Assembly (NCBI GenBank): GCA_029260075.1
Contig: JAJDDY010000087.1
Span: 248,001 to 312,000, forward strand
Source: Phycisphaerae bacterium
Lineage (GTDB): Bacteria > Planctomycetota > Phycisphaerae > UBA1845
Length of the DNA stretch: 64,000 nucleotides
Direction: 5' to 3'
Shown here: positions 581 through 45,349 of the stretch, piece by piece
Layout of the letters: each line of letters begins with the position of its first letter
Position numbering within the stretch: the first letter of the stretch is position 1
Translations under genes and position numbers: made by a program
The notes under the pieces: model-generated
What the model saw: only the letters and a program-made list of their open reading frames with translations
The model's database searches: none
What the model was told of the DNA's origin: nothing

Positions 581-2332
581 ATGCGTCGCTATCCCTCTTT
601 CGGTCTCGTTCTCGTCGCAATAGTCGCACTCCCGTTGATTACTGGGTGTCCTGACCCAACGGTACTGGATCCCTGTTCGGGAATCTCTTGCGATGACGGC
701 GATACATGTACGGTTGACAGTTGTGACAACGGTACTTGCGTCAACGCCCCTATGGACTGCCCGCAAGGTGAGACCTGTGAATCCGGGCAATGCGGACGAA
801 TTGTACCGGCGGAGTGCCGAGCCAACGATCGCGACGACGGAGTGTTTTGTAACGGCTCGGATACGTGTATCGGCGGGAGTTGGATCCACACGGGCAACCC
901 GTGCGAGGCCGGGCAGACTTGTAACGAAGGAGGCGACAGGTGCGATGATTGTACCAGCGTCGCCGATTGCGCAGACAACAATCCTTGCACCAACGATTCA
1001 TGCGTTAACGGTACGTGCTTGAACACGAACAACAATACGTCGTGTAACGATGGGGCGTTTTGCAACGGCTCGGACACGTGTAGTGGCGGGGTTTGCACGC
1101 ACGCGGGGAATCCATGCACGTCGGACCAAAGTTGCAACGAAGGCACAAACAAGTGTGATGATTGCGATACCGACGTCGATTGCCTCGACAACAATCCCTG
1201 CACCAGCGACGTATGTCTTGACGGTAAGTGTTCGCACATCAACAACAATGTGCCGTGTGATGATGGAGTGTATTGCAACGGCTCGGACACGTGCAGCGGC
1301 GGGACTTGCATCCATGCGGGAAATCCATGCGCCGCGGGACAGACCTGTAACGAGGGCGCCGACAGCTGTCCTGATTGTACTACGGACGCCGACTGCGACG
1401 ACGGCGATTTCTGCAACGGCAGCGAAACGTGCGATAACACCGGCACCTGCAAGAACGGAACTTCCCCATGTTCGGCGAATCAGGTCTGCGATGAAGAGGA
1501 TAACCGTTGCACCAAAGCCGGCAAGATGTACTGGACTCAAAGGGCGTCCGATATCATGAGGGCCGATCTAAACGGTGACAATGTCGAAACCGTAGTCATA
1601 ACGGACGGTCCCACGCAACTCGGCATTAGTCTTGACTTAGTTGCCCGGAAGGTCTACTGGGTTCGGTGGGACGGCAGCAACTCGTCCAACGCAAGAATCC
1701 AACGTGCAGACCTAGATGGACCGGACTTCAACACCAACTTCGAGCCGAATTTCATAACAGGCCTGAACACGCCTTACGGTATCGCCGTCTCGAATGCCGC
1801 CAACAAGGTGTATTGGGCATCTTCAGGCGGGAACAGAATAGGGCAGGCGACTTTGAGCGGTGCTAACGTTGAGACCCTCGTGCCTAACCTCTCGGACGGG
1901 CCGTTCGGCATTGATTTCAACCCGGCCGGAGGATCCAGCGGTCAGATCTACTGGACGGAGAACAGTTTCCCGGACACGGTGAAGCGAGTCGACTTTAGCG
2001 GCTCCAATGTGCAAACCCTCGTGTCGGGATTGAGTGAACCGAATTTCATGGCGTTGGATTTGGCAGGTTCGAAGATGTACTGGACGGATAGCGATTCAGA
2101 TGAGATCCGACGAGCCGACCTGGATGGCAGCAACGTTGAGAACGTGTTGTTCACTGGGGACACGCCTATGGGAATCGCAATTGACTCGGGGGCGGGGAAA
2201 ATATACTGGACAGAATGGGAACCGGACAAGATTAGAAGGGCGAATCTGGATGGAACAGACGTGGAGGATCTTATTACGAGTGGACTTGATGTTCCGGTCG
2301 ATATCGCCCTCGATGTCCCAGGCGGCGGTTGA
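581..2332 (+). CDS. Lipoprotein with Cys-rich repeats and LDL-receptor class B (YWTD) propeller
   Basis: 583 residues from an ATG at 581. I prefer this start to an upstream one at 371 because it places a lipoprotein signal (MRRYPSFGLVLVAIVALPLITGC) at the N-terminus, with the lipobox Cys near residue 23. Residues about 25-310 are a Cys-, Asp- and Asn-rich array of repeated units (CNGSDTCSGG, AGNPC, QTCNEG, DC-T-ADC), also visible as imperfect repetition in the DNA. From about residue 315 to the end there are six YWTD-type blades (KMYWT, KVYWV, KVYWA, QIYWT, KMYWT, KIYWT), each followed by an R-A-DLDG-NVE motif, as in LDL-receptor class B repeats, which fold as a six-bladed beta-propeller. It is probably a surface-anchored binding or adhesion protein. 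The ligand is unknown. The next gene converges on it. Confidence 0.85.
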   Translation: MRRYPSFGLVLVAIVALPLITGCPDPTVLDPCSGISCDDGDTCTVDSCDNGTCVNAPMDCPQGETCESGQCGRIVPAECRANDRDDGVFCNGSDTCIGGSWIHTGNPCEAGQTCNEGGDRCDDCTSVADCADNNPCTNDSCVNGTCLNTNNNTSCNDGAFCNGSDTCSGGVCTHAGNPCTSDQSCNEGTNKCDDCDTDVDCLDNNPCTSDVCLDGKCSHINNNVPCDDGVYCNGSDTCSGGTCIHAGNPCAAGQTCNEGADSCPDCTTDADCDDGDFCNGSETCDNTGTCKNGTSPCSANQVCDEEDNRCTKAGKMYWTQRASDIMRADLNGDNVETVVITDGPTQLGISLDLVARKVYWVRWDGSNSSNARIQRADLDGPDFNTNFEPNFITGLNTPYGIAVSNAANKVYWASSGGNRIGQATLSGANVETLVPNLSDGPFGIDFNPAGGSSGQIYWTENSFPDTVKRVDFSGSNVQTLVSGLSEPNFMALDLAGSKMYWTDSDSDEIRRADLDGSNVENVLFTGDTPMGIAIDSGAGKIYWTEWEPDKIRRANLDGTDVEDLITSGLDVPVDIALDVPGGG

Positions 2333-3350: not shown

Positions 3351-3549
3351 GTGCCGAGAAAGGATTCACGGCACAGCGTATTCACGGCACAGCGTTCCTT
3401 AGTGAGTGCCGAGAAAGGATTCACGGCACAGCATGGATTCGCGGCAGAGCGTGTCGCATGCACATCGCACCGGCGAGTATACACGTCCGGCGGAGTTTCT
3501 GGCAATGGAGGCGTCGTTGCGTCGTGTGCCGAGAAGGGATTCACGGCAC
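3351..3549. repeat. Three copies of a covarying hairpin repeat (GTGCCG/CGGCAC arms)
   Basis: Copies at 3351-3374, 3406-3429 and 3526-3549. Each has arms GTGCCG and CGGCAC around a 12-base loop that reads TGAATCCTTTCT (one copy TGAATCCCTTCT) on the minus strand. The same loop occurs at 11691, 11919, 45286 and 45326 with different but still complementary arms. Partial copies (TTCACGGCACAGC) lie between them. Confidence 0.85.
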
Positions 3550-3569
3550 AGCGGTTCATGGCACAGCGT

Positions 3570-11657: not shown

Positions 11658-11690
11658 CTGGGCGCCGCCACTCGCCCGTGTCGCACCGCT

Positions 11691-11778
11691 GGTGCGTGAA
11701 TCCTTTCTCGCACCCATGTCCGCGCGAACCCCTTCACGCGGGCTGCCGGAACGATGGAATGCAGGATGGGAATCCTGC
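11691..11778. repeat. Covarying hairpin repeats after thiC
   Basis: The first hairpin at 11691-11714 has arms GGTGCG/CGCACC and loop TGAATCCTTTCT. A diverged copy lies near 11723-11741 (arms GCGCG/CGCG). A different hairpin at 11761-11778 has arms GCAGGAT/ATCCTGC around GGGA. All lie between thiC and nadB. Confidence 0.8.
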
Positions 11779-11786
11779 TGGGCGGA

Positions 11787-11889
11787 GGGACGAGATAGGA
11801 ATCTCGTCCCAGCGAATGATAGGAATCTCGTCCCAGTGAATGATAGGAATCTCGTCCCAGTGAGTGATAGGAATCTCGTCCCAGCGAGT
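11787..11889. repeat. Tandem array of a 24-bp unit with terminal hairpin
   Basis: Four head-to-tail copies of GATAGGAATCTCGTCCCAG plus a variable YGARt tail, at 11794-11817, 11818-11841, 11842-11865 and 11866-11889. The first copy completes a perfect hairpin with arms GGGACGAGA (11787-11795) and TCTCGTCCC (11802-11810). A single related hairpin is at 19062-19085. Confidence 0.92.
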
Positions 11890-11898
11890 CCCCCACGG

Positions 11899-13725
11899 CT
11901 AAAGCCGCCGCTGCCGCTGGTGCGTGAATCCCTTCTCGCACCCACGACCACGTGTATTTTTTCTCGCATCCACAACCACGTGTACTTTTCTCGCACCCAC
12001 AACCTCGTGAATCCCGCTGACATTCCTGTGTGGCACCGGCTTCCAGCCGGTGATCCTGTTGACGCTGCATCCCACATAACGGGATGCAGCCGACGGCCCG
12101 CGCCGCTCAAAAACAGTGCCATCTTCATGGCGCTCTACGACGACATGATCATTCGTCGAAGCCGTTTCGCCGGCTGCATCACTTCGAAAATGTACACCCA
12201 CCGATTCTGTGCGAAGCTGCGCGCAACCGGCGATGACGCGGGCGACGGTCAGTTCGTTTTGTACCTCCCACCCGGTCGGGCGGTCGAACGTCTTGTCGAG
12301 CGTGTAGTGGGTCCAGAAATCCAGAATTTCGCAGGTCTCGGTGAGTCGGTCGCCTCGGCGTGTGATCCCGACGTTGCGCCACATCAAACTCTTGAGCGAG
12401 TTGCGAATGTCCGCCAGATCGAGCGACGTTCGCTGCGACGGTTGACGCTTGTGTTGAACAGCCCGAACCGAGGGGCGGTGGGCAGCACCCGACGCCAACC
12501 GGCCGGCGGTTTCGCCGGCCACCTTGCCGAACACCAACCCCTCAAGAAGCGAATTGCTGGCCAGGCGATTCGCACCGTGTACGCCCGTGCAGGCCACCTC
12601 GCCGCAACCGAGCAATCCGTCGACCGAGCTTCGTCCGTCGAGGGATACGTCCATGCCGCCGATCAGATAATGTGCACTTGGTCGAACGGGAATGAGGTCG
12701 CGGGTCACGTCGATTTGAAACTCGGCGCATCGCCTTGTGATGGCTGGGAACCGTTCACGGAATCCCGACAGATGTCGCACGTCGAGAAACACGCAGTGCG
12801 ATCGCGTGCCGCGCAGATGTTCGTGAATCGCTCGGCTGACGATGTCGCGCGGGGCGAGCTCGCCATCCGTATGGTGGTCGCTCATGAATCGATAACCATC
12901 GCGATCGATCAGGTAAGCCCCTTCGCCGCGCACCGCTTCCGAAATCAACGATCGACCCGCGCCGGCTACATACAGCGTGGTCGGATGAAACTGGACCATC
13001 TCCATATCGCGCAGACGCGCTTGCGCACGAAACGCAGTGGCCACGCCATCTCCCGTAGCCACGCTCGGGTTCGTCGTCTCGCGCCACAATTGCCCGCACC
13101 CGCCGGACGCGAGTATGGTTTGCGCCGCCCAGATGAGTTGGTGGCCATGCTTGGCGTGGTACGTGACAGCCCCGACGCAGGTTTCGTCGACAGTGATCAA
13201 ATCGATCAAGAAGCAATGTTCAAAGACACGAATGGCGGGAATTTTCATAAGCCGCGCGCGTAACGTCGTCGCCAGCGCTCGACCGGTTTGATCGCCGTCG
13301 GCGTGAACGATGCGGTGTTCAGAGTGACCACCTTCACGGGTGAGTGCCAAGTCGTCGCCCGTTCGATCGAGATTCATGCCCCAATTGATGAGTTCCTTAA
13401 TCGCTTGCGGACCCTCGTCGACCAACCGGTGGACAGCCTCATGATCACACAGACCGGCCCCGACACGAATCGTATCTTGAAAATGCGACGCACATGAATC
13501 GTGGGACGATAGCGCCGCAGCGATACCACCCTGTGCGTGCTGTGTACACGAATCGTTGAAGTCGGCTTTGGTCAGCAACGTCACCTGACCGAATTGTGCC
13601 GCCTCGATGGCTGCACGCGCACCAGCCACACCGCTACCAATCACAAGCACGTCGGTGACGACATGCCCGACGCGATCGGCGTCGAAGTCGGTGAGGTAGC
13701 GGCGGGTGTCGATGAGTGAAGCCAT
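11899..13725 (-). CDS. nadB: L-aspartate oxidase
   Basis: 608 residues. NadB oxidises L-aspartate to iminoaspartate, the first step of de novo NAD synthesis, with FAD. Visible features are the FAD dinucleotide fold near residue 27 (VLVIGSGVAGARAAIEAA), HAQGGIAAAL, the DTIRVGAGLCD segment, EGGHSEHRIVHADGD with the catalytic His/Arg region, VQFHPTTLYV, RGEGAYLID, HYLIGGMDVSLDGRSSVDGLLGCGEVACTGVHGANRLASNSLLEGLVFG, and the C-terminal helical domain (MWRNVGITRRGDRL). The core ends near residue 545. The last 55-60 residues are translated from dispersed repeats (the family A palindrome gives ITGWKPVPH, the hairpin repeat gives CEKGFTHQR), so the original stop codon appears to have been lost. No nadA or nadC is adjacent. 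Confidence 0.96.
   Translation of the reverse strand: MASLIDTRRYLTDFDADRVGHVVTDVLVIGSGVAGARAAIEAAQFGQVTLLTKADFNDSCTQHAQGGIAAALSSHDSCASHFQDTIRVGAGLCDHEAVHRLVDEGPQAIKELINWGMNLDRTGDDLALTREGGHSEHRIVHADGDQTGRALATTLRARLMKIPAIRVFEHCFLIDLITVDETCVGAVTYHAKHGHQLIWAAQTILASGGCGQLWRETTNPSVATGDGVATAFRAQARLRDMEMVQFHPTTLYVAGAGRSLISEAVRGEGAYLIDRDGYRFMSDHHTDGELAPRDIVSRAIHEHLRGTRSHCVFLDVRHLSGFRERFPAITRRCAEFQIDVTRDLIPVRPSAHYLIGGMDVSLDGRSSVDGLLGCGEVACTGVHGANRLASNSLLEGLVFGKVAGETAGRLASGAAHRPSVRAVQHKRQPSQRTSLDLADIRNSLKSLMWRNVGITRRGDRLTETCEILDFWTHYTLDKTFDRPTGWEVQNELTVARVIAGCAQLRTESVGVHFRSDAAGETASTNDHVVVERHEDGTVFERRGPSAASRYVGCSVNRITGWKPVPHRNVSGIHEVVGARKVHVVVDARKNTRGRGCEKGFTHQRQRRL
11919..12062. repeat. Hairpin and palindromic repeats read through by nadB
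   Basis: A hairpin at 11919-11942 (arms GGTGCG/CGCACC, loop TGAATCCCTTCT), degenerate copies near 11950-12010, and an inverted family A palindrome at about 12030-12062. All are inside the annotated 3' end of nadB. Confidence 0.8.
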
Positions 13726-18366: not shown

Positions 18367-19093
18367 TCCGCCCCTCGGCCGTATACTTAATCTCGAAGTT
18401 CGTACCCTCCCACGCCTCGCCCGGGTCGACGCCGGTCTGTTCCCACGGCAACTCGGAAATCTCCACCTGCTGGTCGAGCACCTCGCGCATGACAGCGAAG
18501 TACTCAGCATGGTCTGATTGAATCAACCAAACGCCGCCGGGCTTGATCGCGCGGACGGCCGCGTTGGCGAAGTCCGGCTGAACCAAGCGACGCTTGTGGT
18601 GTCGTTTCTTGGGCCAAGGGTCCGGGTGATAGAGGTGAAGCGCGGACAAGCACGCGGGGGGAAGATGATGCATGACGAAATCGCGGGCGTCGGCGCGCAT
18701 CATCCGCACGTTGGTCATGCCCCACCGCGCCATGCGATCGGCTGCATGGCGGTAGAACTTGTTGGCCCATTCGATGCCTAGGAATCGGCGATCAGTATTG
18801 GACCGAGCACGGCTCAACAGAAACCCACCCTTACCACTACCGATCTCAAGCTCGAACAAGCCCGGCGAACCGAACCAGGTCAGCGGATCCGCAACCTCGC
18901 CCTCCGCAGGCGGAGCGACCATGATGTCTTCTGTCGTTAGCACGAAGGCATGTTCGCCTGAAGCAATTGTTCGTACAAGACCGGTGGGTCTAGACGCGGG
19001 TCGGTATGTCAGAATGAGATAAGTGCTGGGACAGATAAATTCCGGGACTACATACGTGCTGGGACGAGATTCCCATCTCGTCCCTCCTCGCAA
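18332..19093 (-). CDS. trmB: tRNA (guanine-N7)-methyltransferase
   Basis: Up to 253 residues. TrmB methylates G46 of tRNA with S-adenosylmethionine. The Rossmann SAM-binding motif is LFELEIGSGKGGFL. It is followed by FLGIEWANKFYRHAADRMARWGMTNVRMMRADAR, the catalytic segment LHLYHPDPWPKKRHHKRRLVQPDF, the KPGG turn, and C-terminal T-NFE-KY (GTNFEIKYTAEGRTIHRAAY). The start is uncertain. The first 25 codons of the longest frame are made of a dispersed hairpin repeat (19024-19110), so initiation probably occurs inside, for example at GTG 18943 or ATG 18922. It is convergent with the PDZ protein gene. Confidence 0.93.
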   Translation of the reverse strand: MRGGTRWESRPSTYVVPEFICPSTYLILTYRPASRPTGLVRTIASGEHAFVLTTEDIMVAPPAEGEVADPLTWFGSPGLFELEIGSGKGGFLLSRARSNTDRRFLGIEWANKFYRHAADRMARWGMTNVRMMRADARDFVMHHLPPACLSALHLYHPDPWPKKRHHKRRLVQPDFANAAVRAIKPGGVWLIQSDHAEYFAVMREVLDQQVEISELPWEQTGVDPGEAWEGTNFEIKYTAEGRTIHRAAYVRQP

Positions 19094-23538: not shown

Positions 23539-23598
23539 CCATGCTGCTCCACTCCCCGAGTAGGCAGCCCGTTGCGAACGGCGTACCATTCGGTCGTT

Positions 23599-25560
23599 AT
23601 GGAACCTACGTCAATCACCGTCAAAGGGGCTCGCGAGCACAACCTGCAGGGCGTATCGCTCACATTGCCGCGCGGCAAGTTGATTTGCTTCACCGGCGTT
23701 TCCGGAAGCGGCAAGAGCAGCTTCGCGTTCGATACGTTGTTCGCCGAGGGACAGCGTCGTTACCTCGAATCGCTGAGTTCCTACGCCCGGCAGTTCTTCG
23801 GTCAGCTTGCCAAACCCGACGTCGATCAGATTACCGGGCTCAGTCCAGCCATCGCTATTCAGCAGAAGACCAGCGGGTGGAACCCACGCAGCACGGTCGG
23901 AACCATCACGCAGATTCACGACTACCTGCGCGTGCTGTTCGCCCGAGTGGGCCGGCAACATTGCACGTCCTGCGACAAACCGATCAGCGCCCAAACGCGC
24001 GAGCAGATCATCACCCGCATTCTCGACCTGCCAGCCGGTTCCAAGTTGCTCATTCTCGGGCCGGTCGTTCGTGGGCAAAAGGGTGAATACCGTGACCTCT
24101 TCGAGGACATGATCAAACAAGGGTATGCACGAGCGCGAGTGGATGGCGAGGTCGTCTCGCTGGCTGAGGCACCGCTGCTCGCGCGCCACGTGCGCCACAA
24201 CATCGAAATCGTGGTCGACCGCCTGACCGTCGCGACCACGGTGCGCACGCGCTTGGCGGAGGCCGTCGAGAACGCGCTGAAGATCGGAGACGGTGCGCTC
24301 ATCGTGCAGGTTGTGGAAGACGCCGAATCCGATCGGGCCACGGCGAGCAAGAAGGGCAAGACATCCGGTAAGCGAACGCCGCGCGGCACGAAAACGAAAA
24401 GCCGATCGAAGGGGGGATCGACCGACTTGCTCTTGTCCTCCCACTACGCCTGCCCCGATTGCGACGTGAGCTTCGAACCGCCCACACCGCAGTTGTTCAG
24501 CTTCAACTCGCCCACCGGCATGTGCCTGACCTGCGACGGACTGGGTACCAGCTTCGACTTCGATCCCGACCTGCTGGTCCCAAACCCCAGCAAGAGTTTC
24601 CTGAAGCTGGCGATAGAACCGATGCGCGTGCGCATCGGCAAGTGGCGACGGCACATCTTTCGCGGTGTAGCCACGCACGTCGGGTTCGATCTCAAGACAC
24701 CGTGGTCGAAGCTGGCACCGAAAGCGAAGAAGGCGTTGCTGTTCGGAACGGGTGAGCAACACATCACCTTCGAATGGCGGTGGTCGGGCGGCGTCCATCG
24801 TCACGGCGGTACGTTCGAGGGCGTGATCGCCGATCTTCGAGAAAAACATCGCCGGGCCAAGTCCACGTTTGTTCGTTCGTACTACGAAAAATATATGCGC
24901 AAACGCGTTTGCCCTGACTGCCGTGGCGGTCGAATCGGCGTGCAGGGGCGAGCGGTTCGTGTGGCTGGCAGCAACATCAACGAAGTGTCCGCAAGGTCGA
25001 TCGAAGACGCAGCCACGTTCTTTGATAAGATCAAACTGTCGCCGCTGGAAAATGTCATCGCGGAACAGGTCTTGAAAGAAATTCGAGGCCGGTTGCGTTT
25101 TCTTTGCGACGTCGGGCTGGGCTATCTCGCACTCGACCGAACCGCGCCTACGCTTTCCGGAGGCGAATCACAACGCATACGCCTTGCGTCGCAAATCGGC
25201 GCCGGGCTGGTCGGCGTGCTGTACATCCTCGACGAACCGAGTATCGGTTTGCACCCGCGCGACAACCAACAACTGCTCGACTCACTCTGCCGCCTACGCG
25301 ACTTGGGCAACACGGTAATCGTCGTGGAGCACGACGAACAGACGATGCGCGTGGCCGACGAAATCGTCGACTTCGGACCGGGGCCGGGCGTGCGCGGCGG
25401 CCACGTCGTCGCCCACGGAGACATAGACACGATCCTCGCGTCGAAGAAATCAATCACGGGGAAATACCTTCGAGGCGAGGAGGAGATTGAGATACCGAAG
25501 AAACGGCGGGCGGTATCGAAACCGCGTCGAGCAAGACAGGGCGCGAGCGACAAGCAGTAA
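23599..25560 (+). CDS. UvrA N-terminal half (first ATPase module only)
   Basis: 653 residues from ATG 23599 (MEPTSITVKGAREHNLQGV). UvrA recognises damaged DNA in nucleotide excision repair. A normal UvrA is about 940 residues with two ABC modules. This protein holds only module I: Walker A GVSGSGKSS near residue 32, EGQRRYLESLSSYARQF, the Q-loop and UvrB-binding region, paired CxxC knuckles (CTSC, CPDC, CLTC, CPDC), the signature LSGGESQRIRLASQIGAGL, and Walker B ILDEPSIGLHPRDN. It stops after ITGKYLRGEEEIEIPKKRRAVSKP, just where module II should begin. The matching module II starts the 1737-residue protein at 27691, 2.1 kb downstream, beyond a GIY-YIG gene and a transposase gene. It looks like the first part of a broken tandem UvrA gene and may still act with the second part as a split protein. 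Confidence 0.93.
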   Translation: MEPTSITVKGAREHNLQGVSLTLPRGKLICFTGVSGSGKSSFAFDTLFAEGQRRYLESLSSYARQFFGQLAKPDVDQITGLSPAIAIQQKTSGWNPRSTVGTITQIHDYLRVLFARVGRQHCTSCDKPISAQTREQIITRILDLPAGSKLLILGPVVRGQKGEYRDLFEDMIKQGYARARVDGEVVSLAEAPLLARHVRHNIEIVVDRLTVATTVRTRLAEAVENALKIGDGALIVQVVEDAESDRATASKKGKTSGKRTPRGTKTKSRSKGGSTDLLLSSHYACPDCDVSFEPPTPQLFSFNSPTGMCLTCDGLGTSFDFDPDLLVPNPSKSFLKLAIEPMRVRIGKWRRHIFRGVATHVGFDLKTPWSKLAPKAKKALLFGTGEQHITFEWRWSGGVHRHGGTFEGVIADLREKHRRAKSTFVRSYYEKYMRKRVCPDCRGGRIGVQGRAVRVAGSNINEVSARSIEDAATFFDKIKLSPLENVIAEQVLKEIRGRLRFLCDVGLGYLALDRTAPTLSGGESQRIRLASQIGAGLVGVLYILDEPSIGLHPRDNQQLLDSLCRLRDLGNTVIVVEHDEQTMRVADEIVDFGPGPGVRGGHVVAHGDIDTILASKKSITGKYLRGEEEIEIPKKRRAVSKPRRARQGASDKQ

Positions 25561-26394: not shown

Positions 26395-27005
26395 CCGGCC
26401 AAGGCCCTGAAGGGGCCAACTATAACAGCCCAGGGCGACGCCCTCGTTGTTCTACACAAGTATCTATCGGGTTTGCGCGGTAGATGTGGGCGACGATGCG
26501 CTGGTGCGAACAAGATCCCATGGCGCCTTGAGGTGATCACGGCGCGTTGAAATGATCATGATGCGTTGAAATGACCGAAATCCCGAACCGGAAGGGCATC
26601 GATCCTTGCCCTGAAGGGGCTAAAATAGCTCAGCCCAGGGTGAAACCCTGGGGGTGGAGGGACGGTCATTGAGCCGAGCCCTGAAGGGGCGGGATAAGTA
26701 TTCGAGGAATGCCGCAGCCGTCAGCAACTCGTTACGCCGTGCCTATGCCGCCCCTGCAGGGCTCGTTCGATCCGGCCACACAAGCCCCAGGGTTGCACCC
26801 TGGGCTTTGTTATTGCGCCCCGTTGGGGCTACGTTATTGCGTTACGTCGGCCTTGTGTTTCTTACATTCCCTCGGGTTGTGGCTACGGTCGACTCGAACG
26901 ACTCGTCGGCGGCAGACGACGACTGATACGGAAATGTGTAGAACGACGGGGCAACGCCCTGGGAATCGATCAGGCGAAACAGAACGAAGCCCTGAAAGGG
27001 CGCAC
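26395..27005. repeat. REP-like palindrome cluster around the RAYT gene (5' side)
   Basis: Many family B elements: CAGCCCAGGGCGACGCCCT (26428), CAGCCCAGGGTGAAACCCTGGG (26633), AGCCCTGAAGGGGCGGG (26678), CCCCAGGGTTGCACCCTGGGC (26783), GCCCCGTTGGGGCTACG (26816), CAACGCCCTGGGA (26951) and AGCCCTGAAAGGGCGC (26988). Two short direct repeats, GTGATCACGGCGCGTTGAAATGAT and CATGATGCGTTGAAATGACC in parts, lie at 26533-26572. No gene is supported in 26339-27020. Confidence 0.88.
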
Positions 27006-27020
27006 TGGAGTAATGCTGCG

Positions 27021-27473
27021 ATGGCGCAGTCGTTGGCGCAGGTATTGATTCACGTGATCTTCAGTACGAAGGAGCGTTACCCGTTTCTAAGGGCAAATGT
27101 GCGCGCGGAGTTGCATGCGTATACTGCGACCGTGTTACGGGGCATGAATTCGCCTGCGACAGTCATTAACAGCGTCGACGACCACGTACATGTGTTGTGT
27201 CGATTGTCGAAGAACCATGCCGTCTGTGACGTGGTTCGCGAAGTCAAGACGAGTACGTCGAAGTGGCTGAAAACCAACGGTCAAGATTTGACGAAGTTCG
27301 GCTGGCAGAATGGGTACGGTGCGTTTTCCGTGAGTCCGTCGCAGGAAGCCACGGTGCGTCGGTACATCGAAAATCAAGAGGCGCATCATCGGAAGGTTTC
27401 GTTTCAAGATGAGTTTAGGAGTTTCCTCATCAAGTACGACATCGAGTTTGATGAACGGTATGTTTGGGATTGA
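27021..27473 (+). CDS. REP-associated tyrosine transposase (IS200-like, Y1_Tnp)
   Basis: 150 residues from ATG 27021 (MAQSLAQVLIHVIFSTKER). The HUH motif is DDHVHVLCRL near residue 55. The catalytic Tyr is in VRRYIENQEAHHRKVSF near residue 115. RAYT proteins are domesticated IS200-family transposases that cut and move short REP palindromes and are usually single copy. The gene is intact and bracketed on both sides by REP-like family B palindromes (26395-27005 and 27495-27590), matching the expected partner repeats. Together with the GIY-YIG gene it separates the two pieces of the UvrA locus. Confidence 0.9.
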   Translation: MAQSLAQVLIHVIFSTKERYPFLRANVRAELHAYTATVLRGMNSPATVINSVDDHVHVLCRLSKNHAVCDVVREVKTSTSKWLKTNGQDLTKFGWQNGYGAFSVSPSQEATVRRYIENQEAHHRKVSFQDEFRSFLIKYDIEFDERYVWD

Positions 27474-27494: not shown

Positions 27495-27590
27495 ATTTCG
27501 CCCTTTCAGGGCTGGATCGGCCCGCGATGTTATGTCCCCAGGGTTGCACCCTGGGCTGTGTTATTGCGCCCCTTCAGGGCGTCGGTGTTC
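27495..27590. repeat. REP-like palindromes (3' side of RAYT gene)
   Basis: GCCCTTTCAGGGCTGG, CCCCAGGGTTGCACCCTGGGC and GCCCCTTCAGGGCG. These are the same units as upstream of the transposase gene. Confidence 0.88.
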
Positions 27591-27690: not shown

Positions 27691-30600
27691 ATGGGAAAGA
27701 AGAAGCAAATCAAGAAGACGCTGAAGCGTGCGAAGAAACGGCGGGCATCGCCCGCCACGCGCGGAACAGCGCGCGCGGACACGAAACGTACAAAGGAGCG
27801 CCGGCGCGCGGTTGGGAACGGCGCGGCGGCGCGTGCCGGTGCGAATTCGGTGGATGGCGACGTCTCCTGGCTGACCATTGTCGGCGCCAAGCACAACAAC
27901 CTGCACGATCTCACCGTCGAGTTCCCCCTCGCGAGATTCGTATGCATCACCGGCGTGTCCGGGTCGGGCAAGAGCTCGCTGGTTAACGACATCCTGTCCA
28001 AAACACTGGCCCGCGATCTCAACGGAGCCGTCAAGGTCGAACCCGGCGCGCACGACCGCATCGAGGGCATGGACCAACTCGACAAAGTGATCGACATCGA
28101 TCAGTCGCCGATCGGCCGAACGCCACGCTCCAACCCAGCCACCTACATCAAGGTGTTCGACGAAATTCGAGCGCTGTTCACGAAGCTACCCGACGCCAAA
28201 GTGCGCGGCTACAAACCCGGTCGATTCAGCTTCAACGTACACACCGGGCGAGCCGGCGGCGGGCGATGCGAATCGTGCGAAGGCAACGGCCAGAACAAAA
28301 TGGAGATGGATTTCCTTGCGGACGTTTGGATCGCCTGCCCCGTGTGCAACGGCCATCGCTTCAGCCGAGAGACGCTGCAGATTCTCTACAAAGGTAAGAG
28401 TATCGCCGACGTGCTTGGTATGGATGTGCAGGAGGCGCTCGACCACTTCGCCAACGTGCCGAAGATCGCCCGTATGCTCACCACGCTACACGACGTGGGG
28501 CTCGATTACATCAAGCTCGGTCAATCGTCGACCACGCTTTCCGGCGGCGAAGCCCAGCGCATCAAGCTCGCCCGCGAGTTGGTCAAACAAGCCACCGGTC
28601 GAACAATGTATGTCCTGGACGAACCGACCACCGGTTTGCACTTCGACGACATCAAGAAACTGCTCAGCGTGCTCCACCGATTCGTCGACGACGGCAACAC
28701 GGTCGTCGTGATCGAACACAACCTCGACGTCATTAAGACCGCCGACTGGGTGATCGATCTCGGACCGGAGGGTGGAGCGCGCGGCGGTCGTATCGTAGCC
28801 CAAGGCACACCCGAACTCATAGCGAAATCGAAACGGTCGTACACAGGCCAAGCCCTTCGCGAACTGTTCGACGAACGAGCGAAGCGGCTCAGCAACCGCT
28901 CGGCCAGAAAGGCTTCACGTGGTGGCAAGAAGAAGTCCGCATCAACCAAGACCGCCAAGCGCAAGCGATCATCCGTGGGCGACATCACGGTCGTCGGAGC
29001 GAAACAGCACAACCTGAAAGACGTCACGGTCACGATTCCGCGTGGAAAAATGACCGTCTGCTCTGGACCAAGCGGAAGCGGCAAGAGCAGCCTGGCCATC
29101 GACACGCTCTATACAGAGGGGCAGCGGCGCTACGTTGAATCACTAAGCGCCTACGCGCGACAGTTCTTGAGCAGACTTGCACCGCCGAAGGTGGATCACG
29201 TCTATGGCCTATCGCCGTCGATTTGCATCGAGCAGAAGACGACAAGCAAGTCGCCGCGCTCGACCGTCGGAACAATCACGGAAATCTACGACTACATGCG
29301 GGTGCTCTGGGCGCGGATCGGCGTGCCCCACTGTCCGAAGTGTCGAATTCCGATCGGTACACAGTCGAGCGACGAGATTGTCGAGAAGGTGCTGTCGCTC
29401 GGTGACGGCGTTCGCGTCATGCTCATGGCACCGATCGAGTTGACCGGTCAGGAATCATACGCCCAGCGTTTTGGTCACGAACGCGCCAACGGCTATGCGC
29501 GCGTGCGCGTCGACGGCGCGATCCACAAGCTGGACGATGAGATTGAGATTGACGCCAAGCGCCGCCACGCGGTGGAACTCGTGATCGATCGACTCGTCGC
29601 GCGCCGTCGCAACATCGCACGCATCACCGACAGCGTAGAACAAGCGCTTTCTGTCGGCCAAGGCGTCATGATGGCAACCGTCGTGGGCGACGACGAGTCG
29701 CAGGTCGCGGAGCATCGATTCTCTCAGCACCGCTCGTGCGAACAATGTGGCACGGCGTTTGATGAACTGACACCGCACCATTTCTCATTCAATAGCCGGA
29801 TGGGTTGGTGCGAAGCGTGCGACGGGCTTGGCGTTCAGCAAGGGGCCAGCGCATCCGCCGTCGTCATACACCCCACACTTTCGCTCTTGGACGGCGCCAT
29901 CGCGGGGTGGGACGCTCTGGAAGACAACGCACCGATGCACGCGATGGTTTCCGCCTTGGCCAAACACATTGGCTTCGACGTCGACACACCATGGAACGAC
30001 CTGACCGAGACGCACCGGCTTGCTGTGCTCTACGGAACCGGCGACGCATGGATACAAGCACTTCCGCAGCGACCGAAGACTTCCGCACGCAAAGCGAAAA
30101 CCGGACGTGCGAAGACCAAGCGAAGAACGAGCGCCGACTTATCGTCGTGGGGTGCGTTGCGCTTTCGCTGGCGTGGTTTCTTCCCCGCAATCAACCGGGC
30201 CACAAGAACGAGTTGGCAATACCGCAAGCGATTGGAGGATCTTGCGACCGAGGTGCCGTGTGATGCGTGCGCCGGTGGGCGCTTGCGACCTGAATCGGCG
30301 TCAGCGTGCGTTCAAGATTCCACGATTCAACAGGTGTGCGGACTACCGCTGGCTAAGGCGCTGTCATGGTTCGAGGGGGCGAAGTTCACGTCGCGCGATC
30401 GAAAAATCGCCGGCGAGTTGCTTCACGAAATCACCTCGCGACTCCGCTTCCTGGTCGACGTGGGTTTGGATTATGTATCGATCCATCGATCCGCCGCCAC
30501 GTTGTCGGGCGGCGAGTCCCAGCGCATCCAACTGGCGTCACAAATCGGAACCGGTCTGACCGGCGTGCTCTACGTGCTGGACGAACCGACCATCGGTCTT

Positions 30601-32904
30601 CATCCACGCGACAACACTCGATTGATCGGCGCGCTGCGTCGCCTTCGCAATCTGGGCAACACCCTACTACTCGTCGAGCACGATCGTGAAGTTATCGAGT
30701 CCGCCGACCACCTGCTGGACTTCGGTCCCGGAGCCGGAGCAGACGGTGGCCAGATTACCGCATCGGCGTCGCCGAAACGAATTCGAACCAAACGCGACTC
30801 GCTCACCGGAAAATATCTTTCCGGCAAAGAAGCCATACCCGTGCCATCGAATCGCCGCGCCGTAACCGACGATACGCCGACGCTCACGATTCACGGTGCG
30901 AGAGAACACAACCTACGAGAAGTCGACGTGTCCTTCCCGCTCGGCCGGTTCACGTGTGTCACGGGTGTGTCAGGAAGCGGCAAGAGCACGTTGGTGTCGT
31001 CGATCCTGTACAACGCCCTTGCAACGCGCATTCACCGTGCCCGGCTGGTGCCCGGCGGACACGATCGGATCAGCGGCGTGGAGCGGATCGACAAGGTCAT
31101 CAACGTCGATCAATCGCCGATCGGTAACAGCCCCACGAGCAACCCCGCTACGTATACCGGTCTGTTCGATACGATTCGATCGCTGTACGCCAGACTTCCT
31201 GACAGCAAGATTCGCGGCTATGGCCCCAATCGGTACAGCTTCAATCGACCGGGCGGGCGCTGCGAGTCGTGCGAGGGCATGGGCCAGCGGTGCATCGAGA
31301 TGCACTTCCTCCCCGACGTTTGGATTGAGTGCGAAAGCTGCAAAGGACTCCGCTACGTCGCCGAAACGCTGGACGTTCGTTACCGTGGCAAGAACATCGC
31401 CGAGGTGCTGAACATGCGCGTGACCGAAGCGATAAACCTGTTTGAATCCGTCCCGAAAGTCGCACGAATGCTCACGACGCTCGACGACGTCGGCCTTGGC
31501 TACGTCCAACTTGGACAGTCGGCGCCGACCCTTTCCGGTGGCGAAGCCCAACGCGTTAAGCTCGCGGCCGAACTTGGCAGGCCATCGACCGGAAAGACGT
31601 TGTACATTCTCGACGAACCGACCACCGGTTTACACTTCGACGACCTGAAGAAACTGCTCGGCGTGTTGCACCGCCTCGTCGACGTGGGCAATACCTGCAT
31701 CTGCATCGAACACAACCTGGACGTCATCAAGACAGCCGACTGGCTCATCGACCTTGGGCCCGAAGCCGGTGAGCGCGGCGGTCAAATCGTATGCGCCGCC
31801 CCGCCCGAACAAGTGGCGGCTCAGCCCGATTCGCATACCGGTCGAGCGTTGGCGCCGGTGCTGGCTGAGGGTCCACTCATCGAGCGCGTCACGCACGCGC
31901 AAGCCAAGAAGCGGAAGATTGAAAAAGTCGTACAAACCGTGCCCGATCTCGGCGACGACGTGGATATGCCGTGGGTGGGAAATGGTCGGGTTTGGCATAC
32001 GGTAAACCATGTGGACGCCAAGGGTCAACCCACCGCATGGGATTCGAAGCTGTTGATCTGGCTCGTCGACACGATCGAAAAGGTCGGCACGTTCGCGCCG
32101 ACTGATTGGAGCCAGCGGTCGCGCATCGAGATCAAAGCCAAGGCGGCCAAGCCCTGGTTCTGCCACATCCTGACCGGCGGACAAGACTTGCTCGATGTAG
32201 CCATTCGTGTTCCAGAGCAAACGCTCGACGCCGATCGGGTTGCGACACAACTGAACATCAAAACGCTCGACGAGCGAAAAGACTTGCAAATCTACGGGCA
32301 GTGGGCGCGTCTGCGCCGCCGAACGTCGGTCGAGGGTTGGGAAGAATGGCGCATGCACCTGCGAGACTTCGCCGATGTGAAGAAACCCCCATTCCGTCGC
32401 TTCTTCACCGAAGCGGCCAATGCCTACGCCGCCGCGGTGGAACAAGTCAAAGCCGACCCAACCAAGACGATGCCATGGATGAAAGACGGTCAGCAGTGGC
32501 ATCTTTCGCAACGCGGCATCTCACAGCGTAACCCTATTCGATGGAAACCGGCGATGTTGATGGCCATGCTGGGTCGATTCAAGTCGATACAAGGGGACAT
32601 CGGGTTCAACTGGTCGAGCAAGACAGCCGTCCAGCTGGAATTGTCCGGCGAGATCAAACCGGTCGCCAAAATCGTCACGAACATCGGCCGCGGACTACGC
32701 GTCGAGCTACGTGCCCCCAGCGGCGTGGTCACGCCCGCACAGGTCGATCGACTGGGCGAAGAGCCGGAGATTAAGCGTCATCCCGCTTACGATCGCGTGG
32801 TCTTTTGGATGCGCTCGTTGAGTCAGATTGATTCCAAGCAATTGCAAAACGTCTGGCGTATCTGTCGCGGGACCGAGGAATCGGAGCAGTTGAAGTCGGC
32901 ATGA
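27691..32904 (+). CDS. uvrA: Giant UvrA: module II of one UvrA, a full second UvrA, and a duplicated C-terminal domain
   Basis: 1737 residues. Residues 1-55 are a Lys/Arg-rich leader. Residues 60-425 are a UvrA ATPase module II (Walker A GVSGSGKSS near 88, zinc finger CESC...CPVC near 190-215, LSGGEAQRIKLARELV near 288, Walker B YVLDEPTTGLHFDD). From about 431 a complete UvrA follows. Its module I has Walker A GPSGSGKSS near 460 and LSGGESQRIQLASQIG near 938. Its module II has GVSGSGKST near 1090, CESC...CESC and LSGGEAQRVKLAAELG near 1280. Residues about 1413-1737 hold a domain occurring twice, each copy starting MPW-(V/M)-(G/D)-WH. With the 653-residue protein at 23599-25560 this makes four ABC modules, as in the tandem-fused UvrA proteins I associate with planctomycetes. 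The product should load UvrB at DNA lesions. It overlaps the next gene by 4 bases (ATGA). Confidence 0.93.
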   Translation: MGKKKQIKKTLKRAKKRRASPATRGTARADTKRTKERRRAVGNGAAARAGANSVDGDVSWLTIVGAKHNNLHDLTVEFPLARFVCITGVSGSGKSSLVNDILSKTLARDLNGAVKVEPGAHDRIEGMDQLDKVIDIDQSPIGRTPRSNPATYIKVFDEIRALFTKLPDAKVRGYKPGRFSFNVHTGRAGGGRCESCEGNGQNKMEMDFLADVWIACPVCNGHRFSRETLQILYKGKSIADVLGMDVQEALDHFANVPKIARMLTTLHDVGLDYIKLGQSSTTLSGGEAQRIKLARELVKQATGRTMYVLDEPTTGLHFDDIKKLLSVLHRFVDDGNTVVVIEHNLDVIKTADWVIDLGPEGGARGGRIVAQGTPELIAKSKRSYTGQALRELFDERAKRLSNRSARKASRGGKKKSASTKTAKRKRSSVGDITVVGAKQHNLKDVTVTIPRGKMTVCSGPSGSGKSSLAIDTLYTEGQRRYVESLSAYARQFLSRLAPPKVDHVYGLSPSICIEQKTTSKSPRSTVGTITEIYDYMRVLWARIGVPHCPKCRIPIGTQSSDEIVEKVLSLGDGVRVMLMAPIELTGQESYAQRFGHERANGYARVRVDGAIHKLDDEIEIDAKRRHAVELVIDRLVARRRNIARITDSVEQALSVGQGVMMATVVGDDESQVAEHRFSQHRSCEQCGTAFDELTPHHFSFNSRMGWCEACDGLGVQQGASASAVVIHPTLSLLDGAIAGWDALEDNAPMHAMVSALAKHIGFDVDTPWNDLTETHRLAVLYGTGDAWIQALPQRPKTSARKAKTGRAKTKRRTSADLSSWGALRFRWRGFFPAINRATRTSWQYRKRLEDLATEVPCDACAGGRLRPESASACVQDSTIQQVCGLPLAKALSWFEGAKFTSRDRKIAGELLHEITSRLRFLVDVGLDYVSIHRSAATLSGGESQRIQLASQIGTGLTGVLYVLDEPTIGLHPRDNTRLIGALRRLRNLGNTLLLVEHDREVIESADHLLDFGPGAGADGGQITASASPKRIRTKRDSLTGKYLSGKEAIPVPSNRRAVTDDTPTLTIHGAREHNLREVDVSFPLGRFTCVTGVSGSGKSTLVSSILYNALATRIHRARLVPGGHDRISGVERIDKVINVDQSPIGNSPTSNPATYTGLFDTIRSLYARLPDSKIRGYGPNRYSFNRPGGRCESCEGMGQRCIEMHFLPDVWIECESCKGLRYVAETLDVRYRGKNIAEVLNMRVTEAINLFESVPKVARMLTTLDDVGLGYVQLGQSAPTLSGGEAQRVKLAAELGRPSTGKTLYILDEPTTGLHFDDLKKLLGVLHRLVDVGNTCICIEHNLDVIKTADWLIDLGPEAGERGGQIVCAAPPEQVAAQPDSHTGRALAPVLAEGPLIERVTHAQAKKRKIEKVVQTVPDLGDDVDMPWVGNGRVWHTVNHVDAKGQPTAWDSKLLIWLVDTIEKVGTFAPTDWSQRSRIEIKAKAAKPWFCHILTGGQDLLDVAIRVPEQTLDADRVATQLNIKTLDERKDLQIYGQWARLRRRTSVEGWEEWRMHLRDFADVKKPPFRRFFTEAANAYAAAVEQVKADPTKTMPWMKDGQQWHLSQRGISQRNPIRWKPAMLMAMLGRFKSIQGDIGFNWSSKTAVQLELSGEIKPVAKIVTNIGRGLRVELRAPSGVVTPAQVDRLGEEPEIKRHPAYDRVVFWMRSLSQIDSKQLQNVWRICRGTEESEQLKSA

Positions 32905-45195: not shown

Positions 45196-45285
45196 TGCGA
45201 CGTCGGAACGTCGGAGCACTAGACAGTCGAAACTTTGAGACGTCGAAACAAGAAAACCCGACGGCATGGTGCAGTCAATCCGCTG

Positions 45286-45349
45286 GTACGTGAATCCTTG
45301 CTCGTACGTTCATCAAGGTGCCGCTGGTGCGTGAATCCTTTCTCGCACC
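45286..45349. repeat. Covarying hairpin repeats
   Basis: 45286-45307 has arms GTACG/CGTAC and loop TGAATCCTTGCT. 45326-45349 has arms GGTGCG/CGCACC and loop TGAATCCTTTCT. They lie between the convergent mgtE and protease genes. Confidence 0.85.

Follow-up and report, generated by a model that had tools for sequence, protein, structure and literature searches.

Short hairpins recur between the genes of the 64,000-nt stretch of planctomycete DNA analysed here (the window), and their stem arms vary in sequence yet remain complementary, which raises the question of what kind of element keeps its pairing while changing its stem. The preliminary description had named an RNA element, a protein-binding hairpin on DNA and a transposition substrate tolerating any paired stem as candidates. 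The third fitted best, as a RAYT gene was found between such hairpins in this genome and in three other genera. The hairpins are very probably REP elements of a REP/RAYT system whose RAYT would bind the paired stem regardless of its sequence, and our verdict is that they are no RNA but a new REP/RAYT family whose GCT foot is atypical.

All seven copies listed in the preliminary description were found in the window, each with a paired stem, and two additional copies carried a third stem, GGGACG/CGTCCC (Table 1). Each copy of this element (hairpin 1) spans 27 nt and comprises GCT, a 6-bp stem, a T.T mismatch, three base pairs (GAA/TTC or GAT/ATC) and a TCCT or TCCC tetraloop. Folding as DNA predicted this structure for three stem types (z ~ -6 versus shuffles), with the mismatch, the GAA/TTC pairs and the tetraloop taking the place of what had been described as a fixed 12-base loop. 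The 12-mer itself, with up to two mismatches, matched nine times in the window against 3.07 expected (0/100 shuffles reached nine), and two of the nine matches (28906 and 57347) had no such stem. The tandem array of 24-nt units (Table 1) is possibly a product of replication slippage.

Table 1 Coordinates of hairpins, other palindromes and in-frame Y1 insertions. Locations without a prefix are positions in the window.
Feature	Location	Strand	Description
REP hairpin 1	3351..3377	-	GCT foot, GTGCCG/CGGCAC stem, T.T mismatch, GAA/TTC, TCCT loop; sequence and fold
REP hairpin 1	3406..3432	-	GTGCCG/CGGCAC stem; sequence match
REP hairpin 1	3526..3552	-	GTGCCG/CGGCAC stem, TCCC loop; sequence match
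REP hairpin 1	11688..11714	+	GGTGCG/CGCACC stem; sequence match
Hairpin 2 GCAGGATTCCCATCCTGC	11761..11778 (core 11765-11774)	-	Partner of hairpin 1 at 11787-11813, same strand, spacer ~8 nt
REP hairpin 1	11787..11813	-	GGGACG/CGTCCC stem, inner GAT/ATC, A-T replacing T.T; additional copy
Tandem array	11794..11911	-	About four 24-nt units, 5' half (CGCTGGGACGAGATTCCTATC..) of GGGACG-type hairpin
REP hairpin 1	11916..11942	+	GGTGCG/CGCACC stem, TCCC loop
REP hairpin 1	19058..19084	+	GGGACG/CGTCCC stem, inner GAT/ATC, TCCC loop; additional copy
REP hairpin 1	45282..45308	+	Five-pair stem GTACG/CGTAC, one-base loop variant TGAATCCTTGCT
REP hairpin 1	45323..45349	+	GGTGCG/CGCACC stem
Family A palindrome CACCGGCTGGAAGCCGGTG(CCACA)	3585, 9687, 21304, 60767, 63877; L035:1336, 1371, 1922, 1961
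C33 RAYT palindromes	L354:1382-1400 and 2006-2024		First one preceded by GTAG tag
PurH with Y1 insertion	G000:C88 (L209:820-3216), L206, L207, L387-L393
AlaRS with similar in-frame Y1 insertion	L208:1149-5114		Own genome
IleRS with similar in-frame Y1 insertion	L203		G417
ValRS with similar in-frame Y1 insertion	L204		G417
ValRS with similar in-frame Y1 insertion	L205		G410

Across the whole 4.9 Mb genome, the core TGAATCCYTTCT occurred in 289 exact copies (reversed control, 0), and a looser hairpin pattern gave 347 matches. A sample of 161 copies (60 distinct sequences) from 1.16 Mb of this genome, picked by foot and core alone and ignoring outer-stem pairing, was analysed in detail. GCT lay directly 5' of the hairpins in 94-100% of copies per major stem class where the search did not impose it; upstream of GCT the sequence was essentially random with little conservation, and the 3' edge of the unit was vaguer. 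Short, palindromic, present in high copy number, almost only intergenic and preceded by a conserved motif 5' of the foot, the hairpins share these properties with REP elements. The T.T mismatch was present in 139/161 own-genome copies but was A-T in most relatives. Across 392 genomes of the phylum, the strict (T.T) pattern matched this genome only, which makes the T.T form a local one. With the looser pattern, copies were detected in 12/40 relatives, including all four genomes holding a RAYT orthologue.

Within the 1.16 Mb, 11 different 5' arms occurred with their exact complement. The share of Watson-Crick pairs among the 161 copies was 88% at pair 1, 93-98% at pairs 2-6 and 9% at the mismatch position, and reached 99-100% at the inner three pairs, where the pattern used for selection partly fixes the outcome. 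At each of pairs 2, 3, 4 and 10, at least two Watson-Crick types were observed, pair 4 being G-C in 85 copies, C-G in 37, A-T in 24 and T-A in 8. Perfect stems were found in 29 of the 60 distinct sequences, compared to 5.4 expected and a maximum of 15 in 2000 shuffles of the 3' arms. The inner three pairs, within the supposed 12-base loop, also covaried (GAA/TTC with GAT/ATC).

Five stems make up most copies (GGTGCG 58, GTGCCG 36, GGGACG 18, GGAGCG 9, GTGTCG 7), as would be expected if a few independent masters had each been copied and the covariation reflected descent rather than repeated compensation. Because the hairpin copies are related, we used a tree-based null, a simplified R-scape-like test in which Fitch substitutions on a FastTree phylogeny were re-dealt over columns and scored by an APC-corrected G statistic (300 null sets). 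The top four column pairs were all stem pairs, whether the own genome was tested alone or nine genomes were pooled. Of column pairs 7-24, 6-25 and 13-18, only 7-24 (E 0.003) and 6-25 (E 0.05) stood out in the own genome, and all three did so in the nine-genome set (E <=0.013; 0.013 for 6-25 and 0.01 for 13-18), the last of them sitting within the loop as first drawn. The covariation is therefore backed beyond shared ancestry, and one or two stem variants spread by copying alone, the case that the preliminary description had set against its own proposal, is not what the sampling showed. Minor stems were paired too (CGTGCG/CGCACG, AGTGCG/CGCACT, GTGACG/CGTCAC, GGACCG/CGGTCC, GGGCCG/CGGCCC), the inner change from GAA/TTC to GAT/ATC was found with several stems and, when the 161 copies were grouped into 70 clusters, stem types were mixed in 34/42 multi-copy clusters. 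Against this evidence, an origin of the pattern from a few masters is very improbable.

Single-stranded hairpins are prone to arm-to-arm template-switch correction, and compensation could thus be mutational, with template switching at the quasi-palindrome converting one arm to the other; such a process may coexist with reading as a REP. The GGGACG group, in which T.T has partly been exchanged for A-T, is consistent with this explanation. However, free correction should erase the mismatch, which most own-genome copies keep, and we consider a mutational cause unlikely. Under the REP/RAYT reading, the paired stems change in step since the enzyme appears to need a hairpin, not a given stem sequence.

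Covariation is typical of RNA, and it could equally arise in a structured RNA (a terminator, a small RNA, or a hairpin for 3' end processing or stability) through selection on the RNA fold. Copies favoured gaps between convergent genes (49/151 intergenic copies, in 16% of intergenic space), and a role in stabilising or terminating transcripts is also possible for known REPs. However, 151/161 copies (94%) were intergenic compared to ~31 expected (1.16 Mb; heuristic gene calls, coding 81%) and their orientation relative to tandem neighbour genes was random (46 same, 37 opposite), which argues against an RNA element. Both strands were used within clusters (41/91 neighbouring pairs inverted), a conserved downstream T run was not found, and Rfam had no match at the hairpins, its only hit in the window being Acido-Lenti-1, elsewhere. 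Random orientation, together with the bracketing of a RAYT gene by the hairpins in four genera, led us to reject the RNA reading as very unlikely.

Six Y1 matches above cut-off were identified in the own genome, that of a planctomycete whose nearest named hits are Phycisphaerae. One of these, a RAYT (G000:C86:223102-223638), lies 24 kb upstream of the window between hairpins with differing stems (upstream GGTGCG with GAA/TTC, downstream GTGCCG with GAT/ATC). The C86 protein (178 aa) scored 116 bits against NCBIfam NF047646 (cut-off 80; 110 bits for the G417 orthologue) and 21.5 bits against the IS200/IS605-type model NF033573, below its cut-off of 55, and its best PDB match was 4er8, TnpA-REP (E 1.3e-6). 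Three orthologues from other genera (G417, G393 and G411) are 60-62% identical and carry inverted two-hairpin units on both flanks, and all four proteins share the HUH motif MPN-H-[VL]-H and the catalytic-Tyr motif Y-[IL]-H-[EG]-N-P-V-R-K. No such hairpin units were present at any of 11 other RAYT loci checked (0/11). A search of a genome contigs collection found no close relatives of the C86 RAYT, and its structure prediction, from a 4-row alignment, had a mean pLDDT of 35.8, too low for a comparison with TnpA-REP. The hairpins are almost certainly copied around the genome by a matching RAYT.

Other candidates for the mobilising enzyme were rejected. Different repeats flank the window's own Y1 gene (27021-27473), and the motif Y-x-x-x-Q-x-x-H-H places it in a different subclass. 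Near the C33 and C87 RAYTs there were no TCCY hairpins, C33 having its own palindrome. At the Y1 gene on C52 (L033), GTGCCG copies lay ~1 kb away and on one side only.

In complete copies, a second hairpin (hairpin 2) lies 6-9 nt downstream of hairpin 1 on the same strand. These two-hairpin units were clearest in relatives, where they read GCT-GGTGCGAGAATCCCTTCTCGCACC-CACTCTT-GCGGGAATCCCTTCCCGC-GAA. Hairpin 2 was missing from ~88% of own-genome copies, and the mobile unit could therefore be hairpin 1 alone. Neither empty sites nor excision products were observed. Genome G418 (L163-L176) held at least 25 hairpins with many different paired stems (GTATCG, GGACCG, CTGTCG, CGGTCG); a RAYT of the hairpin-bracketed type was not detected in it, which we assume reflects loss or an assembly gap.

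In the mechanism we propose, the unit would be ~55 nt of one strand, made up of the GCT foot, hairpin 1 (variable 6-bp stem, then T.T or A-T, then GAA/TTC or GAT/ATC, with a TCCY tetraloop), the spacer, and hairpin 2, whose head is likewise GAW-TCCY-WTC. If it works like TnpA-REP and IS200/IS605 enzymes, the HUH/Y1 transposase at C86 would bind the unit as a single-stranded hairpin, contacting the TCCY head, the paired stem and the GCT foot, which contains CT and may be the recognition or cleavage motif. Cleavage would take place beside the unit, and copies would be joined at new, mostly intergenic sites. Because pairing rather than stem identity would be required, stems could drift through compensatory changes. 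It is conceivable, if somewhat doubtful, that one RAYT serves the whole hairpin cloud, reading no more than the GCT foot, the TCCY head and whether the stem is paired. If true, this cloud would be a natural selection experiment separating structure from sequence in HUH-enzyme recognition, and tolerance of stem swaps would explain the fast diversification of REP families.

The closest known enzymes belong to RAYT subclass 2.6 (Quentin et al. 2018, PMC6006769), equivalent to group 5 of Bertels et al. and described mostly from Bacteroidetes, whose genes are flanked by atypical hairpins with copies elsewhere in the genome (PMC6006769). The likeness extends to a single Y1 domain of ~179 aa, N-H-[LIV]-H, W-Q, Y-I/L-H-x-N-P, a C-terminal S-S and a hairpin-flanked gene; the present system differs in its planctomycete host, YIHENP and a defined two-hairpin unit with GCT, its placement coming from motifs. 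In its binding of single-stranded REP, E. coli TnpA-REP reads GTAG and depends on the bulge, and it cuts at CT on the 5' or 3' side of the structure; a perfect stem, by contrast, is required by a group 3 enzyme (PMC8266576). With the E. coli TnpA-REP/BIME system (group 2, subclass 2.2), the hairpins share an HUH/Y1 enzyme, an intergenic mismatched hairpin and, 5' of its foot, a short motif, but the motif there is GTAG and the bulge has two mismatches, compared to GCT and a single T.T, A-T in relatives, here. Pseudomonas REPINs are likewise two-hairpin mobile units, and compensatory changes in their hairpins have been noted before (Bertels and Rainey 2011, PMC3116915); however, a REPIN consists of two inverted REPs, whereas both hairpins of the present unit lie on the same strand. 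GTAG- and CGTC-tagged palindromes are intergenic and have been reported in Planctomycetes too (Di Nocera et al. 2013, PMC3733652); ours are also tagged intergenic palindromes, but with GCT in place of GTAG/GTGG or CGTC. IS200/IS605 elements (IS608, ISDra2) share subterminal hairpins with a 5' guide motif and a Y1 transposase, and differ in the transposase family model (NF033573) and in that one RAYT copy here accompanies ~300 hairpins. The present system departs from known REP/RAYTs in its GCT foot, in having both hairpins of the unit on one strand, in its freely varying stem and in its phylum. A conspicuous repeat from a phylum that has been little studied would be explained as a DNA mobility system, not RNA, adding a RAYT substrate with an atypical foot whose compensated stems form a ready library for asking what these enzymes recognise.

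The same covarying pattern had been ascribed to a second set of palindromes (family A, Table 1), which proved to be a separate repeat with little stem variation: 60/117 cores were identical (ATCACCG/CGGTGCC), and the ..GCAG/CTGC.. type occurred in only two. Family A brackets, in inverted orientation, a Y1 gene lying in frame inside purH (L035), and is therefore likely a separate, second REP family with its own RAYT. Another RAYT in the genome (G000:C33, E. coli-like, YIHLNP) is flanked by palindromes of the form GGCAGGTC-3 nt-GACCTGCC.

Two further observations look more surprising than the REP finding: Acido-Lenti-1 at Y1 genes, and in-frame Y1 domains in PurH and aminoacyl-tRNA synthetases. 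Matches to Acido-Lenti-1 RNA (RF01687) at 26786-26830 and 27537-27581 (+) flank the Y1 gene of the window. The own genome had 13 matches (5 over cut-off) and relatives up to 114, with counts of 13-114 in many genomes. Above cut-off, RF01687 was present at 8/30 loci of window-type Y1 proteins, in seven genomes, and at several of these loci it lay near the gene and on either side of it, where a rough count from copies per genome predicts <1. Acido-Lenti-1 was listed only as a probable RNA in the original paper (PMC2864571), and it may be a transposase-linked DNA repeat instead. Covariation by itself does not prove RNA, and the window's Rfam 'RNA' resembles another transposase-linked repeat.

Of the 37 genomes with a match to PurH, 10 encode a PurH of 781-965 aa, compared to the usual ~550-640. 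All ten long proteins, from genomes of the order, contained a Y1/HUH domain in frame and without a stop, at one shared site flanked by SFNN..LCAEL and FIKHTNACG, and at least two unrelated-looking Y1 types were represented. Translated repeat peptides, among them PSRDRKEA, PLPHGRGS and GGTGVSPVQA, flanked the insertions in aminoacyl-tRNA synthetases (Table 1). An in-frame Y1 domain in the essential enzyme PurH is reminiscent of inteins or homing elements, and a literature search found no report of such insertions. Elsewhere in the window, a 1737-aa ORF with internal repeats (27691-32904) looks like a fused double UvrA, and a second UvrA-like ORF lies at 23572-25560.
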